Origin: Fusobacteria bacterium ZRK30
GTDB taxonomy: Bacteria > Fusobacteriota > Fusobacteriia > Fusobacteriales > Fusobacteriaceae
Direction of reading: 5' to 3'
DNA length: 64,000 bases
Assembly (NCBI GenBank): GCA_024628785.1
Contig: CP102405.1
Span: forward strand, 744,001 to 808,000
A program made the translations under genes and the position numbers. Shown one piece after another: positions 27,958 to 54,137 of this stretch. The notes under the pieces were generated by a model. It was not told where the DNA came from. It made no database searches and saw only the letters and a program-made list of their open reading frames with translations. Positions within the stretch are counted from its first letter, which is position 1. Every line of letters begins with the position of its first letter.

Positions 27958-28863
27958 GTGGAACATAAGGGGTACGGACTTGCATTTTTAGCAGGAGTTA
28001 CATGGGGGACTCTAGGAATCATCTCATATTATTTAGGGGAAACAGGAGTTGGACCATTTGAAATAGCTTTTCTGAGGTTATTATTTGCTTTTTTATCGAT
28101 GTTTATTTTTTATTTGATTACAGATAGAAAAAAGTTAAAAGTAAAGAGAGAAGAGGTAAAACATTCTCTATTAATCGGTATAATAACACAGGGAACCATG
28201 AGTTTAGCAATCTATAAATGTATATCTCTTACATCTACCACAGTAGGAGTAATGATGGTATGCTTAGGGCCGCTTTTTACAGCAATATTGTCGAGAATAT
28301 TCTTCAAAGAGAAGATCACTCTCTTTAAAGGTTTAGCCCTGACACTGGCATTTTATGGGGCATTTCTTGTGGTAACCGGGGGAGATGCATCTACTTTACA
28401 AGCTAATGTAATTGGACTTTTGATAGGTTTAGTATCAGCACTGGCATATGGTTTTTTTCCGATATTGACTAAGAGAATACCTGAGAAATGTAATTTAACA
28501 GGGATACTTATGTACAGTTTTTTAGTAGGAGCTGTATATGTATTTTCCATGGTGGATATCAAAATATTATTAGAAGCACTTAGCTTGAAAATGGTCATAA
28601 TATCTGTGATATTAGGGTTGATTCCGACGGTTTTATCTTGTACTTTTTATTCTTTGGCACTTAGATATACTACTCCTACAAAGGCAGGAATAATGAGTCT
28701 GGTGGAACTTCCAACAGCTGCTATTATAGGGCACTTTTTCTTGGGTGAGTACTTATTTGTTGTGAATATAATAGGAATTGTCGTATTACTGTTAGGAACA
28801 GTAGTATCAAAGATAGAACTGCCTAAGAAAAAAAATATACTTGTAACAGGAAATTTGAATTAA
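27958..28863 (+). CDS. DMT-superfamily transporter (two EamA domains)
   Basis: 301 residues from a GTG start after AAAGGAGGATTG. Ten hydrophobic helices in two homologous halves: GLAFLAGVTWGTLGIISYYL and FEIAFLRLLFAFLSMF in the first, IGLLIGLVSALAYGFFPIL and YTTPTKAGIMSLVELPTAAI in the second. Members export amino acids, nucleosides or other metabolites; the substrate is not evident. Monocistronic, followed by a terminator. Confidence 0.88.
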   Translation: MEHKGYGLAFLAGVTWGTLGIISYYLGETGVGPFEIAFLRLLFAFLSMFIFYLITDRKKLKVKREEVKHSLLIGIITQGTMSLAIYKCISLTSTTVGVMMVCLGPLFTAILSRIFFKEKITLFKGLALTLAFYGAFLVVTGGDASTLQANVIGLLIGLVSALAYGFFPILTKRIPEKCNLTGILMYSFLVGAVYVFSMVDIKILLEALSLKMVIISVILGLIPTVLSCTFYSLALRYTTPTKAGIMSLVELPTAAIIGHFFLGEYLFVVNIIGIVVLLLGTVVSKIELPKKKNILVTGNLN

Positions 28864-28900
28864 AAAAAGACCCCTAAACTTTAATTTTAGGGGTCTTTTT
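28864..28900 (+). terminator. Intrinsic terminator after the EamA gene
   Basis: AAAAAGACCCCTAAA and TTTAGGGGTCTTTTT form a perfect stem around a 7-base loop, with nine T. Confidence 0.9.
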
Positions 28901-28977
28901 TTTTATGAATATTTAAATTAAAGAGTTCTAATTTCAACTAATATACCGAGAGTAAAGTCATTTTTATTCTTTAATAT

Positions 28978-29676
28978 TTATATTTTGATCTTGTATTTTA
29001 CTTCGGGACGTCCTACACTTCCGTAAGAAATATCGCTTTTTATCTTTCCTATTTCAGTTAAATAATCTAGATATTTTTTCACAGTGACAGCACTGCTTTC
29101 TAAAAGATCAGCTATCTCTTTAGAGGACCATTCTTTCATGGGATCTGAGATAACAGCATTCATAACTTTCTCTAAAGTTTTTTCACTTATTCCTTTAGGG
29201 AGTCCATTTTCTAAAGTGTTTATCTCGCTGTTTCTTCCATGATAAAGTTTATCTAACTCATTTTGTGTTAAAATTTTCTTTTTAGAAGAAGAAAGCATTT
29301 TTTTGGAAAGATATCTAGCTAAGGCTTCCTGTAACCTTTCGAATTCAAATGGTTTTATAAGATAATCAACTATTCCTAACTGAAATGCTTTTTCTATATG
29401 ATCCTTGTCGTTAGAAGCTGTAACAAATATGGTGTTTATATATTTATTTTCCCCGACTTCTCTTTTTCTCAACTCCTCTAAGATATTCAAACCTTCAGTG
29501 TCAGGCAAATACATATCTAAAATGATTAATTCTATATTGTTTTCTATTATATAATCTACTACCCCTTCTCCTTTAAAGAAAGTTTTAGAGACATTAAACT
29601 CTTTTTCAGTATTGATTATCTTCTCTGTTATCATACTTACCATGGGATCGTCTTCTATAATAACTACGTCTATCAT
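28978..29676 (-). CDS. CitB/DcuR-type response regulator 1
   Basis: 232 residues. The receiver domain (1-120) has the acidic pair EDD at 8-10, the phospho-acceptor in LIILDMYLPDTEG (about Asp 56), Thr/Ser in VTASNDKDH and Lys in YLIKPFEFERL. The C-terminus (about 155-232) is a winged-helix module: ISEKTLEKVMNAV, WSSKEIADLLESSAVTVKKYLDYL and YGSVGRPEVKYKI. Such regulators control uptake and use of C4-dicarboxylates or citrate. It is downstream of its kinase on the minus strand and has a close paralog at 35.5 kb. Confidence 0.9.
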   Translation of the reverse strand: MIDVVIIEDDPMVSMITEKIINTEKEFNVSKTFFKGEGVVDYIIENNIELIILDMYLPDTEGLNILEELRKREVGENKYINTIFVTASNDKDHIEKAFQLGIVDYLIKPFEFERLQEALARYLSKKMLSSSKKKILTQNELDKLYHGRNSEINTLENGLPKGISEKTLEKVMNAVISDPMKEWSSKEIADLLESSAVTVKKYLDYLTEIGKIKSDISYGSVGRPEVKYKIKI

Positions 29677-29760
29677 TTGTATTCCTCCTTGATTGCCTGC
29701 TGCAACATCAAACTTTTGTGTTATTTTAACATTTTAAAGTTAGAAATTCTTTATTTCTTA

Positions 29761-31302
29761 CTATTTATTTAATTTTATATAAAAAGTTTTATAATTTTCT
29801 TTGTTAATGATTTCAATATTTCCATTATATAATTTTACAAGATTTTTAATAAGTGCCAGTCCAGAACCGCGTCCTTGTCCTTTAGAGGAGTAACCTATCT
29901 CAAAAATTTTATCGATATCTAAATCTCCTATCAGACCACTATTATCACTGACCTGGATGAGTATTTGTTTGCTGTCCTCTAAAACTTGAAGGATAATCTC
30001 TTTATTGTCAATCTCTTTTAAATCAAAAGATTCAGTGGCATTTTCAATGAGATTTCCAATTATAACGATGAGATTATCTGACTCTATATTACCATGGGTT
30101 TTCATGAGATTACTCATTTCATCGATGGTAAGGGTGATCTTCCTTTCTTTGGCCAGACTTATCTTAGTGAGGAGGAGTGCAGAAATAATAGGGTCATGGA
30201 TTCCTTCGATCTCTTTATTCTCATTGTCTAATTCATTTTTTATAATTGAAATATACTTTTTAAGCTCTTGGTATTCTTCTAATCGCAGTAAGCCGGATAT
30301 TACGTGGATCTTATTTTTAAATTCATGTACATTGGCTCTCATGGAGTTGATTATCTGGGTAACTCCTGTAATCTCCCGGGCTAATTTTTTTATTTTTTGA
30401 CCTTGTTTAATAATAAATAAAACTTCAGAATCATTATTTTCCTGGATGATATTTATGGCAGTAATAAAAACTTTACGATTAGTTAAAATTATTTCCCGGT
30501 TATCAAAAGTAATATTTTTAGAGATAATTTCATTGTATAAATCTCTCAAAATAATTTCATCAGAGGGCTGTAATCTTTCTTTTGCAACTTTATTGGCTTT
30601 AGTTAGTTTTCCACTATTGTTTATAGTTACGATCTTGTCGCTGAGATGATCGAATAAGATTTGTCTTTCAGCGTAGATATGTGCAAATTCAATAGGTTCA
30701 TATCCAAAAATTTGTTTCTTTATGTTTTTGGCTAAAAAGACAGCGAACAGTATAGACATAACAATAACAATGAGAATAGCAACTAAGACTTCTATAAAGA
30801 ATATATTTTTTAAATCTTCATTTTTATGGTGATATTCCTGAACTCCTAACATTCCAATTAATTTATTGCGATAGGTTATTGGCACAAACTCCTGGAGGAA
30901 ATTATTGGCAGGATCTAAATTATAATATTGAGTCGGTTTATCTATTATTTTTTTTAACATATTCTTATAATTTTCTTCTGGAAGGGGAGTATTATCTTTA
31001 TTTTTATAGGAAAAAACCTCTCCTTTTAGATCCATAATAATAACATAGTTTAAATTGATTAGTTTTGGCCAGATAGATGCTATATATATATTGAGGGTAT
31101 CCTGATTTTGTTTGGATAAGTTTTTTATAATAATTGGATCTTTAGAGAGAACATAAGCATAGCTGTTTAGAACACGTTTTTTATTTGAATCCAATAATTT
31201 ATATGAATTTCTAAAAAAGATAAATTGCATAAGAAACATAGCTAGAAGTACTAATATCAACATATATATAGTCATTTTTTTTTCTAATTTCATAGGGGTC
31301 AC
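29761..31302 (-). CDS. CitA/DcuS-type sensor histidine kinase 1
   Basis: 513 residues. A first transmembrane helix (about 10-30) is followed by an extracytoplasmic PDC/Cache-like sensor domain (about 31-170), a second helix (about 175-195), a cytoplasmic PAS-like part (IVTINNSGKLTKANKVA) and the kinase core: NVHEFKNKIHVISGLLRLEEY with the CitA-type phospho-His, then IGNLIENATESFD and GYSSKGQGRGSGLALIKN. It should sense a carboxylate outside the cell. It is divergent from the tyrS leader and has a full-length paralog at 34 kb. Confidence 0.92.
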   Translation of the reverse strand: MTPMKLEKKMTIYMLILVLLAMFLMQFIFFRNSYKLLDSNKKRVLNSYAYVLSKDPIIIKNLSKQNQDTLNIYIASIWPKLINLNYVIIMDLKGEVFSYKNKDNTPLPEENYKNMLKKIIDKPTQYYNLDPANNFLQEFVPITYRNKLIGMLGVQEYHHKNEDLKNIFFIEVLVAILIVIVMSILFAVFLAKNIKKQIFGYEPIEFAHIYAERQILFDHLSDKIVTINNSGKLTKANKVAKERLQPSDEIILRDLYNEIISKNITFDNREIILTNRKVFITAINIIQENNDSEVLFIIKQGQKIKKLAREITGVTQIINSMRANVHEFKNKIHVISGLLRLEEYQELKKYISIIKNELDNENKEIEGIHDPIISALLLTKISLAKERKITLTIDEMSNLMKTHGNIESDNLIVIIGNLIENATESFDLKEIDNKEIILQVLEDSKQILIQVSDNSGLIGDLDIDKIFEIGYSSKGQGRGSGLALIKNLVKLYNGNIEIINKENYKTFYIKLNK

Positions 31303-31406
31303 CTCTTAGAATTAATTTTGGATATATTTCTTATACTAGTATATACTATATATTAAAAATAATCTTAGTTATCATTTTATTTCTTTTAAAAAAAATCTTA
31401 TTATGT

Positions 31407-31412
31407 TATAAT
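31407..31412 (+). promoter_or_regulatory. -10 element (TATAAT) of the tyrS leader transcript
   Basis: TTATAATT lies 36 bases upstream of the Tyr leader peptide start; the -35 region is AT-rich and weak. Transcription from about 31419 would include the whole attenuator. Confidence 0.55.
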
Positions 31413-31447
31413 TAGGAAAATATAGACTAAGAAATTAGGAGAAAGAC

Positions 31448-31489
31448 ATGAAATTTAATGACAACCAAACTTATTATTACTATTATTAA
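31448..31489 (+). CDS. Tyrosine leader peptide (13 residues)
   Basis: MKFNDNQTYYYYY then TAA. The ATG follows TTAGGAGAAAGAC, a good ribosome binding site. Five consecutive Tyr codons (TAT TAT TAC TAT TAT) occur immediately before the stop, in the leader of tyrosyl-tRNA synthetase and ahead of mutually exclusive hairpins. This is the layout of a classical attenuation leader peptide that senses charged tRNA-Tyr. The peptide itself probably has no other function. Confidence 0.85.
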   Translation: MKFNDNQTYYYYY

Positions 31490-31493
31490 TTGA

Positions 31494-31598
31494 GGGACTG
31501 TGTAGAAATATTACAGCCCATTTTATAGTATACTAATAGGGGTTGTATCTGAATTAAACTTTTTAAAGCTTGCAGATATAATCTGTGAGCTTTTTTTT
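31494..31598 (+). promoter_or_regulatory. Attenuator of tyrS with competing hairpins and terminator
   Basis: Segments can pair in sequence: A GGGACTGT (31494-31501) with B ACAGCCC (31513-31519); B (TACAGCCC, 31512-31519) with C GGGTTGTA (31540-31547); C (TTGTATCTG, 31543-31551) with D CAGATATAA (31573-31581); and D as part of the terminator stem 31565-31593 (13 pairs, two G-T) ending in eight T. A ribosome finishing at the stop codon would cover A, so B:C and the terminator form. A ribosome stalled at the Tyr codons leaves A free, so A:B and C:D form and block the terminator. The logic is an inference from the pairings. Confidence 0.75.
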
Positions 31599-31760
31599 AT
31601 AGTACAGGAAATCATACCCGCAAGGGGCATCACCAAAATCTCTACTCGATAAAGAATATCACCAAAGTATCTATAAATTTACGATGTAAGTTAAGAACTT
31701 TGAGATAAAGATTATTACATAATCTAAGGGTTTTGAGATGAAATTTATGAAGTAAATAAA

Positions 31761-31815
31761 AAGTTATAAAAGATTGAATTGCGCTTGTCTAGATGCAACG
31801 TCATGTTGCTTTTTT
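31761..31815 (+). repeat. Dispersed intergenic repeat, copy 1
   Basis: About 55 bases ending in CTTGTCTAGATGCAACGTCA then TGTTGCTTTTTT. Same element as at 49.2, 54.1 and 55.9 kb. It contains an inverted GCAACGT/ATGTTGC core with T-tract and lies 40 bases upstream of tyrS. Confidence 0.75.
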
Positions 31816-31854
31816 AATAAAAAATAAAATTATATATAGAAAAGGAGATTAACT

Positions 31855-33787: not shown

Positions 33788-33962
33788 TTTTTCCCTCCCT
33801 TTTCATCTGTTCTGAAACTTGTATCGAATATTTGTTCTCTAAAGTTTGAGTTATTCTCTAATTATATATTTACCATAGATAAAAAAATCCTTTAAGAAAA
33901 GAGAAAAAATATGCTAAACTTTTATCATGTTAGTTCATTTGATTAAAAAGCAGGGGGAGAAT

Positions 33963-35501
33963 ATGAGGTTAGAAAAGAAAATATATATATATTTAGTGGT
34001 TTTGATAACGGTTATACTACTTATAACTCACTTTATTGTTTTTAAAAATAAAGTTAAAATAGAAAATTTAAATGAACGGAAAAACCTTGGAAATATAGCA
34101 CTGACTCTCAGTCAGGACCCCTTTATAATAGAAAATTTATATGAAAAAAATTCTGAAAATATCCAGGCTTACACCAATAAAATATGGTCTAAATTAGGGG
34201 ATGTAGATTTTATAACCATAGCTGATATGAACAGCAGGAGATATTCCCATAGAGATCCCCAATATATAGGTAAAATATTTAAGGGTGGAGATGAGAAGAT
34301 GGTTGTGGAAGAGGGAAAATCCTATTTTTCAATGGCCAAGGGAACCCAGGGAGTATCCCTTAGAAAATTTGAGCCCATAAATTATAAGGGAAAGCAGATA
34401 GGATTTATAAGTGTAGGAAAACTACAGGTAGAGAGGGATAAGTGGAAAAATAATTTTATTTTTGAATCAGTATTTTTATTTTTGATAATCCTTTCATTTG
34501 GAGCTCTTTTATCATATTTTTTAGCCAAGAGTATAAAAAAAGAAATTTTTGGATATGAACCTGTGGAAATAGGAAGATTTTATGCAGAAAAAAAAGTTAT
34601 ATTTGATAATATGCATGAGGGGATAGTCACTATAAATGGTAAGGGAGAGATTACCAAAACCAATATAGCGGCTCAAAATATGCTGACTTCCAAGGACGAT
34701 GATATATTTAAACGGTTATTTGAAACTGTGATAGATACCCAGTCGGGATTCAATGACAGAGAGATAATGGTAGAAAGCGGAAAATTATTTGTAAGTGCGA
34801 TAAAATTAAATAAAACAAAAAAAATATTGGATGTTATCTTTATATTGAGAGATGGTGGAGAGGTAAAGAGGGTAGCTGAGGAGATAACGGGAGTTGCACA
34901 GATAATTAACTCTATGAGAGCCAATGTCCATGAATTTAAGAATAAGATCCATGTAGTTTCTGGACTTCTTCAGTTGGAGGAGTACGAGAAAGCTAAAGAT
35001 TATATACTCTACTTAGAATATGAAGTTGAAAATGAAAAACATAACGTTGTAGGAGTAAAAGATCCGATAATTGAAGCACTTCTTCTGGCAAAGATGAGTT
35101 TAGCCAAAGAAAGCAGGATAAATTTTAAGGTAGATGAAAAAACGAAATTAGATAAAAATCATGACAATATAGATACCAATGATCTGGTTGTAATAATAGG
35201 GAACCTATTGGAAAATGCCAGAGAAGCCTGTGAAAAAAGTGTAGAGAAGAACATACAGGTCAGTTTTTTTGAAGATGAGAGTAAATTAAGAATAGAGGTT
35301 ACAGACAGCGGTCGAAGTATAGATACCAATGAGATGGAAAAAATATTTAATGTAGGTTATTCCTCCAAGGGTGAGGGCCGAGGCTCTGGACTGGCACTTA
35401 TTAAAAATCTTGTTGAGGTATATAAGGGGAGCCTGAATATTAAGAGTCGAAAAAATAGTAAAACATTTTGTGTGGAACTAAGTAAGGAGGGGAAGTTATG
35501 A
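33963..35501 (+). CDS. CitA/DcuS-type sensor histidine kinase 2
   Basis: 512 residues from the ATG at 33963, after AGGGGGAGAAT, giving almost the same length as its paralog at 29.8 kb. Layout: helix (about 7-27), extracytoplasmic sensor domain (about 28-165), second helix, PAS-like segment (IVTINGKGEITKTNIAA), then NVHEFKNKIHVVSGLLQLEEY with the phospho-His and IGNLLENAREACE, GYSSKGEGRGSGLALIKN. The kinase core is nearly identical to kinase 1 and the sensor domain is much less so, implying different ligands. It overlaps its response regulator by 4 bases and lies 2 kb upstream of the 2-hydroxycarboxylate transporter. Confidence 0.93.
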   Translation: MRLEKKIYIYLVVLITVILLITHFIVFKNKVKIENLNERKNLGNIALTLSQDPFIIENLYEKNSENIQAYTNKIWSKLGDVDFITIADMNSRRYSHRDPQYIGKIFKGGDEKMVVEEGKSYFSMAKGTQGVSLRKFEPINYKGKQIGFISVGKLQVERDKWKNNFIFESVFLFLIILSFGALLSYFLAKSIKKEIFGYEPVEIGRFYAEKKVIFDNMHEGIVTINGKGEITKTNIAAQNMLTSKDDDIFKRLFETVIDTQSGFNDREIMVESGKLFVSAIKLNKTKKILDVIFILRDGGEVKRVAEEITGVAQIINSMRANVHEFKNKIHVVSGLLQLEEYEKAKDYILYLEYEVENEKHNVVGVKDPIIEALLLAKMSLAKESRINFKVDEKTKLDKNHDNIDTNDLVVIIGNLLENAREACEKSVEKNIQVSFFEDESKLRIEVTDSGRSIDTNEMEKIFNVGYSSKGEGRGSGLALIKNLVEVYKGSLNIKSRKNSKTFCVELSKEGKL

Positions 35502-36166
35502 TAGATGTAGTTATTATAGAAGATGATCCCATGGTAAGTATGATAACGGAGAAGATAATAAATTCTGTAGGAGAATTTCGTGTAGTAAAAACTTTTAAAG
35601 AGGGGAAAAAAGCCATTAAATATTTGGAACAAAATCATGTGGAACTGATAATATTGGATATGTTTTTACCCGATACCAATGGTTTAGTAACTTTAGAAAC
35701 TATAAGAAAGAAAAAAATTGGTGTGGAAGTTATTTTCCTCACAGCTTCAAATAATACTGTGGAGATAGAGAGAGCATTTAAATTAGGAGCTATAGATTAC
35801 CTCATAAAACCCTTTGATTTTAATAGATTAAAGGATTCTTTGGGAAGGTATTTAAATAAAAAATCAAATATTTTAGGAAAGGAAGTTTTAAGCCAAGGTG
35901 AGGTAGATAAATTATTTTTAAGGAATAAAACTAAGGGGAGCAGTGTCAAAGGGATTAGTGAAAAAACTTTGAAAAAAATAATGGATGTATTATTATTGGA
36001 TCCATCCAAGGAGTGGTCCTCTAAGGAGATTTCCGATATTTTAAATACAAGTACAGTAACAGTAAAAAAATATTTGGATCACCTTATGGAGTTAGGAAGG
36101 GTAGAAAATTCAATCTACTACGGTAGTGTAGGTCGTCCTGAATATAAGTATAAGGTAATACTGTAA
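35498..36166 (+). CDS. CitB/DcuR-type response regulator 2
   Basis: 222 residues, starting inside the kinase stop (ATGA overlap), with the same first 20 residues as regulator 1 (VVIIEDDPMVSMITEKIIN). Receiver landmarks: EDD, LIILDMFLPDTNG (about Asp 56), LTASNN, YLIKPFDFNRL. The C-terminal winged helix WSSKEISDILNTSTVTVKKYLDHL and YGSVGRPEYKYKV is conserved with the paralog. The nearest plausible target is the transporter at 37.6 kb. Confidence 0.92.
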   Translation: MIDVVIIEDDPMVSMITEKIINSVGEFRVVKTFKEGKKAIKYLEQNHVELIILDMFLPDTNGLVTLETIRKKKIGVEVIFLTASNNTVEIERAFKLGAIDYLIKPFDFNRLKDSLGRYLNKKSNILGKEVLSQGEVDKLFLRNKTKGSSVKGISEKTLKKIMDVLLLDPSKEWSSKEISDILNTSTVTVKKYLDHLMELGRVENSIYYGSVGRPEYKYKVIL

Positions 36167-54085: not shown

Positions 54086-54137
54086 AATTATAAAATCTGA
54101 ATTGTGTTTATCTAGATGCAACGTTACGTTGCTTTTA
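54086..54137 (+). repeat. Dispersed intergenic repeat, copy 3
   Basis: ATTATAAAATCTGAATTGTG then TTTATCTAGATGCAACGTTA and CGTTGCTTTT. It shares about 45 of 52 bases with copy 1, contains the perfect inverted core GCAACGT/ACGTTGC, and lies 14 bases from the tRNA 3' end. Confidence 0.75.

Follow-up and report, generated by a model that had tools for sequence, protein, structure and literature searches.

The locus studied here raises the question of whether a short open reading frame ending in tyrosine codons, located upstream of the tyrosyl-tRNA synthetase gene (tyrS) of Fusobacteria bacterium ZRK30, is part of a regulatory leader, and if so, of which kind. The window, by which we mean the whole stretch of 64,000 nucleotides that was analysed (contig CP102405.1 of this Fusobacteriaceae genome), contains the element at positions 31448-31600. 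We deduce that tyrS is very likely controlled by ribosome-mediated transcription attenuation, with this element as the sensor of charged tRNA-Tyr, the regulation being inferred without expression data. A first-pass annotation, made before any comparison, had described a 13-residue leader peptide with five terminal Tyr codons, as well as mutually exclusive pairings and an intrinsic terminator in front of tyrS. Both claims held, the former exactly as described and the latter in the form of the pairings A:B, B:C, C:D and D:E (Table 1).

The sequence parts of the element are established, as are their conservation, their covariation and the match between leader codons and downstream gene. The Tyr codons (31472-31486) read TAT TAT TAC TAT TAT and are followed by a TAA stop at 31487-31489, and the terminator stem (31565-31593) has 13 bp and -14.2 kcal/mol before its T tract. 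The leader region folds more stably than its shuffles (z -4.2), and the tyrS product is a class I tyrosyl-tRNA synthetase (PF00579 match). A transcription start downstream of the element had been named as a possible refutation; as far as the sequence can tell, the one good promoter is located 5' of the leader, and no promoter-like site on the + strand scored between 31600 and tyrS.

Table 1. Features of the tyrS leader region and of the tandem leaders found elsewhere in the same genome (window positions unless stated otherwise).
Feature	Position	Strand	Evidence or remark
Promoter-like site TTTAAA-16-TATAAT, TG at 31404-31405	31385..31412	+	Sequence; TG-extended -10 at the same place in relatives
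Shine-Dalgarno AGGAG of leader ORF	31437..31441	+	Sequence; also in relatives
Leader ORF MKFNDNQTYYYYY and stop, 13 codons, ATG at 31448	31448..31489	+	Tyr run kept, rest changed in relatives
Segment Z (tentative), leader coding stretch AATTTAATGACAACC	31452..31466	+	Can pair with C (31541-31555)
Segment A, GGGACTGT	31494..31501	+	Pairs with B
Segment B, TACAGCCC	31512..31519	+	Partner is A or C
U-rich stretch after B, ATTTTAT (CATTTTGTATTA in most members)	31520..31526	+	Near-invariant in alignments
Segment C, GGGTTGTATCTG	31540..31551	+	Pairs with B through its 5' part and with D through its 3' part
Segment D, terminator 5' arm	31565..31577	+	Predicted to be sequestered by C in antiterminator
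Segment E, terminator 3' arm and T tract	31581..31600	+	Pairing kept across relatives
tyrS, tyrosyl-tRNA synthetase, 405 aa	31855..33072	+	PF00579
Extra spacer between attenuator and tyrS	31605..31820	+	Partly repeated elsewhere, missing in several relatives
Tandem AGCS leaders L219/L223	G000:C2: ~413,900-414,400 (own genome)	-	Both leaders kept in two genera

In the proposed mechanism, transcription would start about 25-30 nt 5' of the leader. When Tyr-tRNA is plentiful, the ribosome would pass the Tyr codons to the stop and its leading edge would cover segment A; B would then pair with C, D would be left free, and the D:E terminator would halt transcription before tyrS. With Tyr-tRNA in short supply, the ribosome would wait on the Tyr codons, its leading edge not reaching A, the start of which is about 8 nt past the last Tyr codon; A would stay free, A:B and C:D would pair, no terminator would form, and tyrS would be transcribed. 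If the leader is left untranslated, Z may pair with C and default the transcript to termination, a tentative step with mixed support. The RNA chassis 3' of the codons occurs again in the same genome before matching genes, carrying Met, Thr, His and Tyr runs, so that the codon run would act as an exchangeable specifier. The transcript start, the stalling, the readthrough and the response to tyrosine are all inferred from sequence alone, there being no transcript, term-seq or starvation data.

The geometry of the leader is consistent with this scheme. In nearly all of 40 elements, covering all specificities, the last cognate codon lies 5-10 nt from the core of A (modal spacing 8 nt; GG-type A core, spacing taken by eye from alignments), the outliers being two Trp leaders (L304 and L326) at about 16-17 nt. 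The position of the stop codon shifts from 0 to +24 among the same elements, and in several of them, including transporter ones, A lies inside the leader ORF, so that the stop falls before, at or well beyond it. With the start of A assigned automatically, the spacing has a standard deviation of 2.9 nt when measured from the last cognate codon versus 6.5 nt from the stop; the automatic start is taken from a local alignment that runs into weak flanking pairs, which widens the spacing. The leading edge of a ribosome is generally found about 12-13 nt past the first base of its A-site codon. Because of this footprint and the observed spacing, A is expected to be free with the ribosome at any but the last cognate codon, and covered once the ribosome has moved past the run. 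The earlier claim that the stop lies five bases before A held for the window (4-5 nt), but stop position is not a conserved feature; we dropped the stop-to-A spacing in favour of the spacing of about 8 nt from the last cognate codon. The further claim that a completed leader masks A and favours termination, with stalling at Tyr favouring readthrough, is supported by the geometry and the predicted folds, in the absence of expression data.

Tyr-rich leaders seem to be a conserved property of this tyrS type. Among 98 Fusobacteriota genomes surveyed, 15 Fusobacteriaceae genomes have a window-type tyrS, and 14 of these, from six genera including Propionigenium maris, carry a Tyr-rich leader 5' of the gene. 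The leaders differ outside the Tyr run (MNKKINYNGYYYYYH, MKKNFTLGNRYYYYYL, MIEKLRRNYYYYYYL, MKFIAVKGYYYYL and MHRNYYYSYYYNKINKK), TAT and TAC are interchanged within it, and the RNA shows compensatory changes between relatives. Alignment of relatives had been suggested as a check, with loss of the Tyr codons beside a retained terminator as the refuting outcome; the Tyr run is kept while peptide and RNA sequence change, and that outcome is absent. The one genome lacking the leader is an incomplete same-genus assembly (G059) with an unusual context upstream of tyrS, a region that could perhaps be misassembled. In another assembly (G060), tyrS and its leader are placed on separate contigs (L005/L222).

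The tyrS genes of Fusobacteriaceae fall into two types, split by genus, whose proteins are only ~32% identical, and Tyr leaders are also found 5' of the non-orthologous tyrS in three other genera (g5, g6 and g12). No Tyr-rich leader was present at the Leptotrichiaceae-type tyrS loci examined, and none was found at 71 tyrS loci outside Fusobacteriota, a limited sample. The bare pattern SD-ATG-(TAY)4 occurs 11 times in the window's own genome compared with 7 in the reversed control; such a search yields many chance matches and served only as a source of candidates. The bare pattern is only slightly enriched, and the weight rests on position and conservation. A short TTG-start ORF (MEKISDVLRERGQLKQFTDYRYC...) observed 5' of tyrS in genus g6 (L065, L066, L068 and L074) duplicates the beginning of the tyrS product in truncated form, with no obvious terminator after it.

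The pairings are supported to different degrees. The chained score of A:B, B:C and C:D was not reached by any of 100 dinucleotide shuffles in nine of ten elements (the window and 8 of 9 others). In the tyrS elements, 11 of the 21 pairs of B:C and the terminator are changed on both sides (18 cells, 0 of 500 shuffles), and the covariation of B:C and D:E is matched by only 0-2 of 500 shuffles. The terminator alone is paired in 97.8% of cells across relatives, with both-sided changes in 7 of 13 pairs, and an intrinsic terminator is present between leader and gene in every Tyr element. Covariation of B:C and D:E is likewise found in transporter elements, and across mixed specificities these two helices have 38 double-sided cells against 11.5 expected (0/500 shuffles). 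A:B is the weakest helix in the tyrS test, equalled by 61 of 500 shuffles; its support is moderate, being consistent but less independent than that of B:C and D:E. The C:D pairing is clear in tyrS elements and weaker in some AGCS transporter elements. For Z:C we obtained p = 0.01 in the window and a combined p of ~5e-5 over 15 elements, with no significance in genera g9 or g10 and no such pairing in some genera. The stretch CATTTTGTATTA just 3' of segment B is near-invariant across specificities though mostly unpaired; it might be an RNA polymerase pause site, a function we can only infer.

When the transcript was folded before E is made, A:B and C:D formed with A free, and B:C formed with A covered, a switch seen in the window's genus, Propionigenium maris, the g9 genomes and the g12 element. 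Most tyrS relatives have pre-terminator folds that agree with the proposed masking of A. In equilibrium folding the terminator prevails in every ribosome state (mean P ~0.94), which means that only a kinetic switch could work. Before E is made, D is predicted to be sequestered to nearly the same extent in the two ribosome states of the window element (0.62 vs 0.58), and in several AGCS and tyrS2 elements the states hardly differ in this respect.

The same layout appears to be shared by leaders of several specificities. Tyr leaders with this downstream arrangement are found in several genera 5' of an AGCS symporter gene (PF01235), and Tyr leaders also precede an ABC binding protein gene. A covariance model trained on AGCS Tyr-leader elements only (R1) was searched against 61 Fusobacteriaceae genomes. 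Built from other loci, it recovers the window element (E 3e-5) and two type-2 tyrS elements, together with leaders of other codon content: WYFYYYF 5' of DAHP synthase (aroF) and prephenate dehydrogenase genes, MMMM 5' of metG and metN, MLMMM 5' of homoserine dehydrogenase (hom) and metY, HHHHH 5' of a histidine-type ABC transporter, and WIHWWF 5' of trpS. A second model (R2; 15 mixed members) adds TTTT 5' of thrS and HHHH 5' of the his operon, and scores the window element at 74.8 bits, the latter being one of its training rows. In the window's own genome all eight R2 matches at E <= 0.0012 have a cognate leader, and two weaker ones (E > 0.008) have none. Gene names for the R1 and R2 elements, other than tyrS and AGCS, come from reading the translations, with no family search. 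We regard it as likely, by inference from sequence, that these elements form a homologous attenuator family with interchangeable codon runs, in which the run sets specificity. The implied oddity of a Tyr attenuator at tyrS is thereby refined, this element being one member of that family. An R2 match at window 28766-28901 (39.4 bits) consists of a gene end and a terminator without a leader, and was rejected as a false positive. Two Tyr-leader attenuators stand in tandem 5' of one AGCS gene in the window's genus and in Propionigenium maris (L226); such an arrangement in series could possibly sharpen the response.

The best Rfam match of the window element, under permissive settings, is the trpB motif RF04312, at 30.1 bits versus a gathering cut-off of 59 bits; the motif also ranks first for many relatives, and the elements of relatives score 34-43 bits. 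It is not filed as a member because the gathering threshold is not reached. In full-length matches P1 and P2 of RF04312 correspond to B:C and the terminator, respectively, and the element has the format of the motif, namely, in the 5' UTR of amino-acid genes, a P1 hairpin with a terminator hairpin after it. Narunsky et al. 2024 report over 900 copies of RF04312 from Firmicutes and Fusobacteria; they class it as a strong orphan riboswitch candidate and state that a classic attenuator could not be excluded (PMC11109978). Our search of the 98 Fusobacteriota genomes gave 46 matches, all sub-threshold (best 52.4 bits). In nearly all of the 26 that were read, the leader is rich in codons for His, Pro, Trp or aromatic residues, the number of cognate codons being only one to three in the Pro leaders and some of the Trp ones. 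Where the following gene could be seen, it was the transporter or pathway gene that fits the codons.

The 399 Bacilli genomes gave 17 RF04312 matches, 11 of them above threshold, and every copy has an SD-led leader. Trp codons are present in the leaders of all 11 above-threshold copies, as WQxW in ten (mostly WQ[STN]W) and as a single Trp (RWQSR) in one; the next gene is of TrpX type where visible, two loci having no downstream ORF in view. The six below-threshold copies comprise four Trp leaders, one HHHH leader 5' of hisZ and one YYFSYF leader 5' of a TrpX paralogue. The Rfam model does not include segment A; in the Bacilli elements tested, this segment shows complementarity to B (p 0.007-0.02). 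For S. suis, T-box control of trpX has been reported (PMC9382623), and this gene can therefore use either system. It is likely, as inferred from sequence, that RF04312 is explained by a leader-peptide attenuator of the window type.

Several other readings have to be weighed against the attenuator. A metabolite riboswitch of the RF04312 kind has in its favour that Narunsky et al. 2024 rank this motif among strong candidates (PMC11109978), and that conservation is high in B:C and in the loop that follows B. However, a single ligand cannot account for Tyr, Met, Thr, His, Pro, Trp and aromatic genes, the leader codons fit the gene in all but background matches, and the same paper itself leaves a classic attenuator possible; we consider this reading very unlikely. 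We hold the same opinion of stalling specific to the nascent peptide, or opening of a downstream ribosome site (translational control), in place of slow Tyr decoding. In some leaders residues are kept before the run (NNQT in the window's genus, NN[VI]F[LI]TSS in g5), and Pro runs are generally known to stall ribosomes on their own. Against this, the residues around the run are wholly different between genera, pairing of the codons with C can account for their conservation within a genus, and every Tyr element has an intrinsic terminator.

A T-box or another leader that binds tRNA directly deserves mention, as the tyrS genes of Firmicutes are classic T-box targets and T-boxes are present in the Fusobacteriota genomes surveyed. 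Nevertheless, on sequence models this possibility is all but excluded: no match lies in the window, and the only one in its own genome is 5' of asnS. The latter match is sub-threshold (G000:C1:493452-493626, L254), and the g9 and g11 genomes (G042-G044 and G047) have two or three clustered sub-threshold matches. A plain insulating terminator preceded by a chance Tyr-rich ORF might be suspected, given that TAT runs are not rare at low GC and that the bare pattern is only slightly more frequent than expected genome-wide. The comparative data all but rule it out, through conservation in six genera, covariation, and homologous elements at other loci whose codons match their genes; with the leader present in 14 of 15 genomes, and the element recovered by a covariance model from other loci, chance does not explain the data well. 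The attenuator remains the preferred reading.

Among known systems, RF04312 resembles the window element in occurring before amino-acid genes in Firmicutes and Fusobacteria, but its model lacks the leader ORF and segment A, i.e. the proposed sensor. The pheST attenuator of gamma-proteobacteria (PMC1262725) likewise combines a leader rich in cognate codons, a tRNA synthetase gene and a choice between terminator and antiterminator, but for another amino acid and in another phylum. In the textbook attenuator the stalled ribosome masks a paired segment. The window element differs from this trp-type form in having its Tyr codons upstream of A, followed by the A:B/B:C/C:D/D:E relay; the candidate counterpart of the masked segment 1 is Z, with mixed support. 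Synthetase attenuators outside gamma-proteobacteria include a His leader of a hisS paralogue in Bacillus and trpS and leuS leaders in Streptomyces (PMC2965389, PMC1262725), and the relevant sections of these papers describe no common RNA chassis across amino acids. The cysS leader uORFC-8-2 of Rhodobacterales and the aroF leader uORFC-13-1 of Acholeplasma are predicted ribosome-mediated attenuators, for one gene each and with structures unlike the window element (PMC8632094). The T-box (RF00230) is also a reusable RNA chassis with codon-set specificity before many amino-acid genes, but it senses uncharged tRNA directly, whereas the sensor of the window element would be the translated leader. 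In the literature searched we found no leader attenuator for tyrS or from Fusobacteriota; related predictions may be listed by Lopatovskaya et al. 2010 (cited in PMC4833913).

Leader-peptide attenuators are usually regarded as unrelated inventions, one per operon. The chassis described here is seen, within one bacterial family and to some extent in Bacilli, with at least six single-residue specificities as well as a mixed aromatic one; specificity is therefore apparently changeable by swapping a short codon run. In a bolder reading, which we consider likely, one inherited chassis has been re-specified repeatedly by exchange of codon cassettes (Tyr, Met, Thr, His, Pro, Trp and mixed aromatic), so that Fusobacteriaceae would have their own equivalent of the T-box, read by the ribosome, and RF04312, also in Bacilli, would be the same attenuator and not a riboswitch. 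What is new is the homologous family with exchangeable codon runs and, as a prediction, an identity for an orphan RNA class; the more than 900 RNAs of this class, so far listed as a riboswitch candidate, would have an explanation open to testing. The family further predicts substrates of uncharacterised transporters, e.g. the AGCS-family symporter as a tyrosine importer, and may provide a ready-made modular sensor for reporter work.

Some features around the element are more local. The extra spacer resembles a small repeat, pieces of which are also found at window 54114-54137 and at loci L219, L220 and L012. A terminator-like hairpin, GCAACGTCAYGTTGC-TTTTTT, is located near its 3' end (31795-31814), and the spacer carrying it might conceivably lower tyrS expression. 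Two similar sensor kinase/response regulator pairs flank tyrS on opposite strands (window 28978-31302 on the - strand and 33927-36166 on the + strand), and apparently represent a duplication.
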